From positions 212,466-276,465 of the forward strand of contig JAOIOW010000001.1 in the NCBI GenBank assembly GCA_028140795.1: DNA of 64,000 bases, in the 5' to 3' direction. The stretch comes from Fidelibacterota bacterium (GTDB lineage Bacteria; Fidelibacterota; Marinisomatia; Marinisomatales; Marinisomataceae). Positions 52,650 to 56,024 of this stretch are shown here, one piece after another. The first letter of the stretch is position 1. Each line of letters starts with the position of its first letter. The position numbers and the translations under genes were made by a program. The notes under the pieces were generated by a model, which did not search any database, was not told where the DNA came from, and saw only the letters and a list, made by a program, of their open reading frames with translations.

Positions 52650-53378
52650 ATGTTAGTGAACAAAGATATTTTAACAGTAAAAGATTTAAACAAATATTTA
52701 CCTGCTTTAAAAACAGAGATTGATATTCATTTTCATGAAAAACTTAAAGAGGGATTATTTAAGGTAGACGCATTAGTAGGATTAAAGAAAATTCCAAGCG
52801 AGTCTATTGATTTGATTGTCACTGAACCAGCATTAGACCCTAACAGTGGAATGTCCTATTCATCTTATATTAAGTGGATTGAAGAATGGGTTTCAGAATG
52901 TAAAAGAGTTTTAACAGCAAGTGGTTCAATTTATATTATATGTCCTTGGGAATCTTCGTCTCTTTATCACTCAGTACTTGGAAAAAATTTTATCATACAA
53001 TCAAGAATTACAGCTGAAAGACAAATCGAAAACACTGAACTATCTCAGTGGAAGAACAAAATATCAGATATTTGGTTTGCTACTAAAACAAACGACTATA
53101 TTTTTAATCAAAATTATATAGTGAATGGAAAAAATATAAATAACCCTAAACCAGAAGAAATTAAGGATAATCTATGGTTTCATCTTGATTATGAAGAAAT
53201 AGTACATAGAATAGTTAAGGCAAGTAGTTTTAAGCTAAACTGGATTCTTGATCCATTTATGAATGTAGGGGCTGTCGGAGTTGTTGCGAAAAAAAGAGGT
53301 AGAAGATTTATAGGCTTTGAAAATAATCAAGACCAAATTCTTCTTGCTATGAAAACAATTAACGAAAGAGAAAAATAA
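52650..53378 (+). CDS. DNA methyltransferase-like protein with degenerate motifs
   Basis: SIDLIVTEPALDPNSGMSY in place of TDPPY; ILDPFMNVGAVGVVAKKRGRRFIGFENNQDQ in place of DPFxGSGTT. Confidence 0.75.
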   Translation: MLVNKDILTVKDLNKYLPALKTEIDIHFHEKLKEGLFKVDALVGLKKIPSESIDLIVTEPALDPNSGMSYSSYIKWIEEWVSECKRVLTASGSIYIICPWESSSLYHSVLGKNFIIQSRITAERQIENTELSQWKNKISDIWFATKTNDYIFNQNYIVNGKNINNPKPEEIKDNLWFHLDYEEIVHRIVKASSFKLNWILDPFMNVGAVGVVAKKRGRRFIGFENNQDQILLAMKTINEREK

Positions 53379-53815
53379 TGCTAAAACAGATTGAAAAAGA
53401 TATGATGGAGGCACTCAAAAATAAGAATAAAGAAAAAGCAGGAGCGTTGAGGCTTTTAATATCTAAGTGCAAAAATAAAGCTATTGAGGTCGGACATGAA
53501 TTATCTGACTCTGAGGTTATAAAAGTACTTCAAACCGCAGCAAAACAACATAAAGAATCTATTAGAATGTACAAAGAAGGCAATAGAGATGATTTAGTTG
53601 AAGCTGAAATGAATGAATTACAATTTGTAGAATCATATTTACCATCAATGATGAGTGAAGAAGAGGTTAGAAGTTTAGTAGAAAATATTATTTCAGAAGT
53701 TGGGGCTTCACAAATGTCGGATTTTGGTAAGGTAATGCCTCAAGTGATGAAAAAGGGCGCAGGAAAAGTGGACGGAAATGTAGCCCAATCTATAGTTAAA
53801 GAATTACTTTCTTAA
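53378..53815 (+). CDS. GatB/YqeY domain protein
   Basis: DMMEALKNKNKEKAGALRLLISKCKN; MPQVMKKGAGKVDGNVAQSIVKELL. Confidence 0.94.
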   Translation: MLKQIEKDMMEALKNKNKEKAGALRLLISKCKNKAIEVGHELSDSEVIKVLQTAAKQHKESIRMYKEGNRDDLVEAEMNELQFVESYLPSMMSEEEVRSLVENIISEVGASQMSDFGKVMPQVMKKGAGKVDGNVAQSIVKELLS

Positions 53816-53817
53816 AT

Positions 53818-54282
53818 ATGATTATTGACATCCTTTTTTTAATGATATTTCTCATCATGGGCGTTTTTGGGATGAGAAAAGGATTTATTGAATCACTTAC
53901 AGACTTTTTAAATCTTGTTGTAGGAATATCAATTGCATTGTTTTTTTATGTAGATTTATCATTCTTTATCTCAAAATATGTTTCAATTAACCAAACTATT
54001 ATCATATTCTTTTCTATTGGCGCAATCTTTGTAATATCTCTTATAATATTAAGGTTGTTAACTAGTTTGCTATTATTTTTATTCGATGGAAGTATCTCAT
54101 CATACAAGACACTAAATATGATTTTAGGCTTTACGTTAGGAATATTTAAAGGAGCATTAAGCTTAGTACTATTTACAGGTATTTTTGAAAATTACATTTC
54201 ATTGAGGCTTTATGAAATTTTATTTCAACAGTCGAAGATTCTTGTTTTACTGGAACCTATCAAAGACTATATTTTTAGTTAA
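53818..54282 (+). CDS. CvpA family membrane protein
   Basis: DILFLMIFLIMGVFGMRKGFIESLTDFLNLVVGI; four TMs. Confidence 0.88.
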   Translation: MIIDILFLMIFLIMGVFGMRKGFIESLTDFLNLVVGISIALFFYVDLSFFISKYVSINQTIIIFFSIGAIFVISLIILRLLTSLLLFLFDGSISSYKTLNMILGFTLGIFKGALSLVLFTGIFENYISLRLYEILFQQSKILVLLEPIKDYIFS

Positions 54283-56024
54283 TGAGAAGAATAGCGCAAG
54301 AAACAATAAATAGAGTTTTAGAAGAAGTTGATATCTTTGAGGTTGTTTCACAATATGTTGATTTAAAAAAAAGAGGTAAAAACTACTTTGGGTTGAGTCC
54401 ATTTAGATCTGAAACAAAGCCATCATTTAGTGTAGCTCCAGATAAAAATATGTGGTATGACTTTGGATCTGGCCAGGGCGGGAATGCTGTACAATTTCTT
54501 ATAGAATATGAAAAAATTAGCTTTTCTGAAGCAATTCGTTCACTTGCTGAAAAACATAATATTGAAATAATTGAAGTTGGCGATGAACAGCAAAGCAACT
54601 TATATGATCAACTTTATGAAATCCATAATCTTGCAAATCTATTTTTTATAAATAATTTATCTACAAAAAAAGGAATCAAAGCTAAATCTTACATGAAAGA
54701 TAGATTTTTCGATGATACAATAATAAAAAAATTTTCCCTTGGCTTTGCTAGTGATGCTTGGGATGAATTATATAATGAATTAAAAGAAAAATTTGATAAC
54801 GAAGTTATAGAAAAATCTGGTCTATTTTCAAAAGGGAAAAAGGGATATTTAGATAGGTTTAGAAACAGAATTATGTTTCCATTTTTTAGCCCATCAGGAA
54901 AAGTGATAGGTTTTAGTGGTAGAAGCTTATCGGAAAAAGAAGATGTTAAATATCTTAACTCTCCTGAAACATTATTATTTCAAAAAAGTAAAGTTTTTTA
55001 TGGTTCATATCAAACAATGCCTGAAATTCGTAAGCAAAATTATGTTCTTTTAGTTGAAGGACAGACTGATTTTTTAAGATTATATGAAAAAGGGTTTACA
55101 AATGTATTAGCAACATCTGGTACTGCATTTTCGTCCAAACACGCAGTAGCTTTAAATAAATATACAAATCGTGTAATTCTTACTTATGATTCGGATAATG
55201 CTGGAATTAATGCAGCAATTAGAACTGGATATATTTTAATGCAAAATGGTTTTGAAGTAAGAGTTCTTGATTTAGGAAATGAACTTGATCCTGACGATTA
55301 CTTTAAGCTTAAGGAAAATAATAATACTTCCTTTAAACAGCTTATTAAAGAAGCAGTACATCCGATAAATTATATTATTGTTAAAAAGAATATATTATCA
55401 AAAGGCGCTTCCGATCGATCAAAGTTCTTGAATGAGTCCATAGAAGAAATCAAGTTGGTAAAAGATGTTATCATTAGAAATGACTTAATCAAAAGACTAT
55501 CTAACGAACTTGGAGTTATTGAGAGCGAGATTTTAAATCGCTTTGGTCAAATATCTCCTAGAAAAGTTAAAGCGAGTAAAGTGACCGATGCAGAAGAAAC
55601 CTCTATAAGAAACTTTGATTCTAAGTCTGATATTGCTCAGCTAGAAATATTAAAATTGCTAATCCACAATGCAGCATTAGCTGATAAAATCAATATATCG
55701 TTATTTGATAATAAGCTTTGTTACAATATTGTTAAGTCTATTAAAGATCATAAAGGATCATATAATAATGTTGCCCAACTCCTTGAATTTATAGGCAATA
55801 GTCCAGAAGAACGTAATTTGGTTGCAGCTTTAGCAGTCGATAGACCTGAAAAGGAAAATGAATTAATTATATTAAATGATTGTGTTAAAACCTTAGAAGA
55901 TATATCTATCAAAAAAGAAATTAGCCAGATTAGAAATCAAATTCGCATTGCAGAAGATAATAATCAAAGTTTAGATACTAGCTTGATTCGTAAGCTGGAA
56001 GAACTTCAGAAGAAAGTCTCATAA
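54282..56024 (+). CDS. dnaG: DNA primase, zinc-binding residues replaced
   Basis: GLSPFRSETKPSFSVAPDKNMWYDFGSGQGGNAVQF; RNRIMFPFFSPSGKVIGFSGR; Toprim VEGQTDFLRLYEKGFTNVLATSGTA...TYDSDNAGINAA. Confidence 0.95.
   Translation: MRRIAQETINRVLEEVDIFEVVSQYVDLKKRGKNYFGLSPFRSETKPSFSVAPDKNMWYDFGSGQGGNAVQFLIEYEKISFSEAIRSLAEKHNIEIIEVGDEQQSNLYDQLYEIHNLANLFFINNLSTKKGIKAKSYMKDRFFDDTIIKKFSLGFASDAWDELYNELKEKFDNEVIEKSGLFSKGKKGYLDRFRNRIMFPFFSPSGKVIGFSGRSLSEKEDVKYLNSPETLLFQKSKVFYGSYQTMPEIRKQNYVLLVEGQTDFLRLYEKGFTNVLATSGTAFSSKHAVALNKYTNRVILTYDSDNAGINAAIRTGYILMQNGFEVRVLDLGNELDPDDYFKLKENNNTSFKQLIKEAVHPINYIIVKKNILSKGASDRSKFLNESIEEIKLVKDVIIRNDLIKRLSNELGVIESEILNRFGQISPRKVKASKVTDAEETSIRNFDSKSDIAQLEILKLLIHNAALADKINISLFDNKLCYNIVKSIKDHKGSYNNVAQLLEFIGNSPEERNLVAALAVDRPEKENELIILNDCVKTLEDISIKKEISQIRNQIRIAEDNNQSLDTSLIRKLEELQKKVS

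Follow-up and report, generated by a model that had tools for sequence, protein, structure and literature searches.

The only DnaG primase of a lineage of small-genome marine Marinimicrobia carries an N-terminal ribbon in which all four zinc ligands have been exchanged, C-H-C-C having become S-R-D-S. The most probable reading, to which we assign a probability of roughly three in four, is that this is a zinc-free ribbon in a vertically inherited sole DnaG, and that it forms part of a stepwise shedding of zinc sites across the lineage. The gene lies in a window of 64,000 nucleotides, the whole stretch of DNA analysed here, from a Marinimicrobia (SAR406) genome represented by a 0.92 Mb assembly that is 85.8% complete. 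No report of a cellular DnaG devoid of all zinc ligands was found in the open-access literature, where absence is not proof.

A housekeeping primase without zinc ligands

The dnaG gene (54282..56024, + strand, as are all features of the window given below) has an ATG start and encodes a genuine housekeeping enzyme, a replicative DNA primase of 580 aa. This is what the sequence-only reading had taken it to be, and three observations bear it out: the full-length product scores 383.9 bits against the curated DnaG model TIGR01391 (cut-off 283.6), no other DnaG turned up in its genome, and the gene occupies the ancestral locus. Directly upstream lies a gene for a CvpA-like membrane protein (53818..54282), preceded by conserved neighbours encoding a GatB/YqeY-like protein (53378..53815) and a DNA methyltransferase-like protein (52650..53378). 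All three were named by inspection and placed by synteny, this MTase-YqeY-CvpA-DnaG order being common to the genus and to outgroup families.

The domain order in the ORF is equally familiar. A match to PF01807 (CHC2 zinc finger, 101.3 bits) is followed by DNAG_N (PF08275, 131 bits), which makes up part of the RNA polymerase domain (residues 121-244; 54642..55013), by the Toprim domain (PF13155, 63.6 bits; residues 254-340; 55041..55301) and by a weak DnaB-binding match (PF10410, 21.9 bits, cut-off 20.6) in the fast-evolving C-terminal helicase-binding region (residues 366-580; 55377..56021), where there is also a weak fold match to the DnaG CTD structures 6cbr and 4im9. The Toprim motifs, whose catalytic acidic residues had earlier been said to be retained, are indeed so: E259, G260, D263, D303 and D305 do not vary among 42 aligned DnaGs. 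The protein thus resembles canonical DnaG (TIGR01391, PF01807; 1d0q, 2au3) in domain order, Toprim residues, predicted fold, neighbourhood and single copy, but the genus departs from it in having S-R-D-S at the ligand positions together with six fixed changes in the polymerase domain.

The ligand segment of the protein reads FGLSPFRSETKPSFSVAPDKNMWYDFGSGQGG. Codons and alignment place S39 (54396-54398) at the position of zinc ligand Cys 1, R42 (54405-54407) at that of the His, D60 (54459-54461) at that of Cys 3 and S63 (54468-54470) at that of Cys 4. A search across the phylum covered 245 genomes and found DnaG in 205 of them. S-R-D-S was present in 22/22 same-genus genomes yielding dnaG, whereas the other DnaGs read, drawn from ~25 families of the phylum, had C-H-C-C without exception (68/68), and no intermediates between the two states were seen in these 22 and 68 sequences, making for a sharp switch. 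The genus in question, hereafter the clade, is the only one of its family (labelled f1) in the search. Given that S-R-D-S recurs in 22 independent assemblies while all 68 others retain C-H-C-C, neither sequencing error nor chance can account for it. The phylum-wide alignment, which had been proposed as a check on the claim that all four ligands are replaced, therefore upholds that claim and extends it to the whole genus.

Other changes accompany the four replacements. At 13 of 100 outgroup-conserved positions the genus has a different, fixed residue, and all four ligands (4/4) are among them, for which P ~ 2e-4 under random placement. Near the ligands, T46K, I57M and a Trp at position 58 are fixed as well. 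In the polymerase domain, the genus likewise carries fixed substitutions at six positions conserved in outgroups (I201F, G212S, A222V, Y233F, Y261Q and G304S); it is possible that these compensate for the altered ribbon.

Residues 1-100 (54282..54581) make up the N-terminal template-binding domain, which in the window's DnaG contains no Cys at all. Its profile score and predicted ribbon fold, which matches 1d0q, assign it to PF01807, but the three-Cys-one-His zinc set is missing. A full-length AF2 model based on the 42-sequence alignment reached a pLDDT of 86.8, with the domain lying 1.1 Å from 1d0q, the B. stearothermophilus ZBD, over 92 columns. A second model of the domain was built from clade sequences alone, so that relatives with zinc sites would weigh less, and gave a pLDDT of 91.9, a pTM of 0.83 and a distance of 1.2 Å to 1d0q, with two of the five models being poorer (pLDDT 75.7 and 44.9); these values are to be read in the light of AF2 having been trained on the family and tending to return the family fold even without a stabilising metal. 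Structure prediction of residues 1-100, another of the checks that had been suggested, is thus consistent with a domain that keeps the zinc-ribbon fold.

The N-terminal domain is also under strong purifying selection. Mean identity within the clade is 87% for this domain, compared with 75% for the RPD and 53% for the CTD, and dN/dS is ~0.03 in two pairs with unsaturated synonymous sites (0.013/0.475 and 0.027/0.774). These figures are difficult to reconcile with a domain that is decaying and dispensable for priming, as in metazoan mitochondrial Twinkle, which likewise has a primase-like N-terminus without its former zinc cysteines. Human Twinkle lacks the four cysteines as well as primase activity (PMC3610141), and the clade genomes are reduced, both of which would be in keeping with decay. 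However, Twinkle has lost its other primase motifs along with the activity (PMC3610141), whereas in the clade the catalytic residues are intact, no part of the protein is better conserved than the N-terminal domain, the four replacements are fixed across 22 genomes, and the searches described below found no other DnaG or PF01896 primase. As constraint and single-copy status together make a loss of function unlikely, we see little room for decay, and a domain that is still in use is the better reading.

Such a domain might nonetheless hold a metal by other means. The sequence-only reading had named a shifted set of zinc ligands as a finding that would speak against it, and none turned up: residues 1-100 hold on average 0.06 Cys and 0.44 His per clade sequence, as against 3.0 and 2.7 in outgroups, with a single Cys in 1/18 clade sequences and at most one His in any. 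With almost no Cys or His in this region, a shifted zinc site is ruled out. General cysteine depletion was considered as well and rejected, as Cys is not lower in the ribosomal cluster or in the rest of DnaG; the latter has 2.9 Cys in the clade versus 2.0 in outgroups, and this higher number means that the N-terminal loss is not a matter of Cys avoidance. More subtly, the domain could bind zinc or another metal through D60, E44, H91 or a residue elsewhere, since D60 occupies a former ligand position and Asp is able to ligate metals. Yet a conserved set of strong ligands is absent, with Cys confined to that one sequence in 18 and His averaging 0.4, and we know of no structural zinc set composed of S, R, D and S; metal binding of this kind strikes us as improbable.

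Alternatively, a zinc-containing second primase might do the work. This, too, had been flagged as an outcome that would overturn the earlier interpretation, and no second DnaG was found in the window's own genome, which has one PF01807 match, or among relatives searched with full-length DnaG; archaeal-type primase PF01896 was absent from the 28 genomes searched for it. With its own assembly only 85.8% complete, a second enzyme could in theory hide in the missing part, but relatives up to 98% complete, several of them at 92-98%, show one full-length DnaG match each, the exception being G043 with two. We therefore consider a hidden second primase very improbable indeed, which leaves the zinc-free DnaG as probably the sole primase.

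Zinc-free ribbons in viral and mobile-element primases

The S-R-D-S ribbon is not without parallels. The earlier suggestion that it resembles zinc-less domains of mobile-element Toprim primases proved correct, as its motif is shared with Bacteroides and viral primases: motifs of the SPLRxExTPSF...NxWYDFG type occur in Bacteroides locus L051 and in 15 viral contigs. In viral sequences, neither exact peptide patterns nor short queries produced matches; degenerate DNA patterns did. A broader viral scan, in which only PF, PSF and W-x-D-F were fixed and sites 1 and 4 lay outside the query, returned 35 primase-like ORFs, a few of them near-duplicates, with Ser at site 1 in 35/35, S/A/T at site 4 in 31/35 and varying residues at site 2. 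Viral primases of 240-1100 aa commonly have a zinc-free CHC2 version of the form S-P-F-x-x-E...W-x-D-F-x-[SAT]-G (L321-L377, L315, L378, L379). Bacteroides-type mobile and phage zinc-free primases (L051, L112-L126, L315, L321-L379) have in common with the clade's DnaG a Ser at site 1, an Asp at site 3, a small residue at site 4 and a Trp two residues ahead of the Asp. They differ from it in being element-encoded, in many cases only ~300 aa long, and in standing apart in a tree from which the motif was masked.

This likeness raises the question of whether the zinc-free domain was brought in from a phage or mobile element by recombination instead of evolving in place. The S..D motif is common to Bacteroides-type mobile primases and those of Flavobacterium phages, being carried in zinc-free form by laban6-1, FPSV-D35 and 1H, and among viral entries Flavobacterium phage 6H gives the closest fold match. 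Once the seven columns of the ligand motif are masked, however, the domain branches within Marinimicrobia DnaG in the tree (clade support 0.998, enclosing node 0.886). It shares 56% identity with Marinimicrobia DnaG versus 38% with viral zinc-free forms. Moreover, residues beside and between the motif positions (YFGL, PSFSVAP) agree with the host family, and the gene order at the dnaG locus is ancestral. The grouping in the masked tree argues that the S-x-D-S ribbon evolved in place; a mobile-element origin of the domain was rejected on the strength of this tree and of synteny, and we hold recombination to be quite unlikely. Since the masked tree keeps them apart, the likeness to viral and mobile zinc-free primases is one of convergence. 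The viral zinc-free forms themselves are scattered at several places among zinc forms in the masked tree, a distribution that suggests repeated loss.

Layered loss of structural zinc sites

The sequence-only reading had concluded from the zinc motifs of UvrA that there was no general loss of zinc in this genome. This is correct in that UvrA keeps its CxxC, but L31, L32, L36, S14, DnaX, DnaJ centre I and some RecR proteins have lost their ligands, as became apparent when the window's whole own genome was read for zinc sites and compared with relatives. Among ribosomal proteins, L36 has altered ligands in 8/8 clade genomes versus C-C-C-H in 13/13 outgroups, L32 has lost three of four Cys in 7/7 clade members while being intact in 15/15 outgroups, and S14 is of the zinc-free type in 6/6 clade genomes and of the zinc type in 13/14 outgroups. 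The zinc site of L31 is lost in 7/7 clade members, in family f13 (3/3) and in genome G074, and kept in the 9 others read. Similarly, the clamp-loader subunit DnaX has lost its zinc module in 7/7 clade members and in f13 (3/3), while 18/18 others keep it; an example lies in genome G000 (contig C7:25098-27435; L169 5098-7435). DnaJ centre I is lost in 7/7 clade members, f13, G074 and G024, and kept in 15.

Two further proteins vary within the clade. RecR, encoded near DnaX, lacks its C4 zinc site in 4/7 clade members and in none outside the clade, and in the same four the first Cys pair of LigA is altered, although one of them has four Cys with changed spacing, so that the zinc-site status of LigA is, from its sequence, ambiguous. 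L33 and LeuRS are without zinc sites in the own genome, where alone they were recorded, and were left out of the loss count. By contrast, zinc sites are kept in RpoC (N- and C-terminal), UvrA (CxxC), AlaRS (CGGTHV), CysRS (the WHTEC cysteine) and DnaJ centre II, and the survival of those in RpoC, UvrA, AlaRS and DnaJ centre II implies that zinc removal is selective.

The distribution of the losses reveals layers, some common to f13, some clade-wide (DnaG, L36, L32) and some within the clade (RecR, LigA). Family f13 has lost the sites of DnaX, L31 and DnaJ centre I, as well as that of S14 in one genome, but its DnaG is still C-H-C-C, and this partial state makes the losses look stepwise or parallel. 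In outgroup genomes, losses are isolated: L31 in G074, and DnaJ centre I in G074 and G024. Several candidates were discarded. Loss of the L36 gene in the own genome was rejected because the assembly is incomplete and relatives carry L36 with altered ligands; absence of the TopA zinc ribbon and the ClpX zinc domain is common to most of the order and does not count as a clade loss. A ZnuA-type solute-binding protein was found in none of nine genus genomes (G000, G048, G057, G055, G045, G041, G039, G047, G058), but it is missing in many relatives too and was rejected as a clade-specific trait.

As for why zinc sites were lost, the likeliest driver, judging from habitat, would be the scarcity of zinc in surface seawater, which taken on its own we rate at about even odds. 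In the surface ocean, zinc concentrations run from picomolar to nanomolar (PMC9337993). Both zinc-free ribosomal proteins and zinc-free paralogs have been tied to zinc economy (PMC3087516, PMC2770081). Streamlining is known in epipelagic Marinimicrobia, with zinc going unmentioned there (PMC6143742). A cause other than zinc scarcity, be it oxidation resistance of cysteine sites or relaxed selection and drift in the course of genome reduction, is less likely but by no means remote, resistance to oxidation in particular keeping a fair chance. Zinc ribbons are prone to oxidation, which would fit the former. Genes for stress mitigation are present in epipelagic Marinimicrobia, and the streamlining literature has weighed drift among the possible causes (PMC6143742). 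On the other hand, general Cys content is not reduced, and the DnaG replacements are invariant, whereas relaxed selection would leave variable residues. Taken singly, scarce zinc is the cause we favour.

How a zinc-free primase may work

In known primases, template reading and assistance in starting the primer fall to the ZBD, T7 primase without its ZBD making random dinucleotides (PMC6163395), and in a plant organellar primase residues near the zinc cysteines are used for recognition (PMC10557236). Against this background, we propose that the sole chromosomal DnaG, passed on vertically in the clade of small-genome marine Marinimicrobia, had its zinc ribbon converted into a zinc-free one by swapping all four ligands for S-R-D-S, together with fixed changes nearby. 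In place of zinc, contacts between side chains (S39, D60 and S63, perhaps R42-D60), whether hydrogen bonds or a salt bridge, may tie the knuckles, and the zinc-free domain would still bind template and work with the polymerase domain in priming, be it with changed or unchanged priming-site specificity. The change in DnaG would be one step in a lineage-wide removal of structural zinc from replication and translation proteins, and on the best reading the most unusual step in this series.

The closest precedents for such a series are the C-minus forms of ribosomal proteins (L31, L36, S14, S4 and others) and Zur-regulated paralogs, in which core proteins likewise lose ligands, a loss tied to zinc economy (PMC3087516, PMC2770081). 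Where those are often conditional paralogs existing beside zinc forms, in the clade no form but the zinc-free one was seen, and the list of proteins reaches as far as the replication primase and a clamp-loader subunit. We consider it somewhat better than an even bet that this free-living lineage has hard-wired its zinc economy, with a zinc-free primase, a DnaX without zinc module and zinc-free L31, L32, L36 and S14, and that the recurrent S-x-D-S ribbon, having arisen independently in cells and viruses, supports template-directed priming.

The zinc ribbon of primases is treated as the reader of priming sites, while the contribution of zinc itself has been described as unresolved (PMC6163395). 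A natural, essential, single-copy DnaG with no ligand left makes the role of the metal directly testable, since it allows fold, template recognition and zinc to be told apart in a working enzyme. The recurrence of S-x-D-S in viruses suggests a general way of making a zinc-free ribbon, and parts of the core machinery held to depend on zinc can, it appears, be remade to do without. Taken as a whole, the pattern would be a concrete case of cells, in an abundant ocean phylum, lowering their need for zinc through changes to conserved proteins themselves and not through conditional paralogs.
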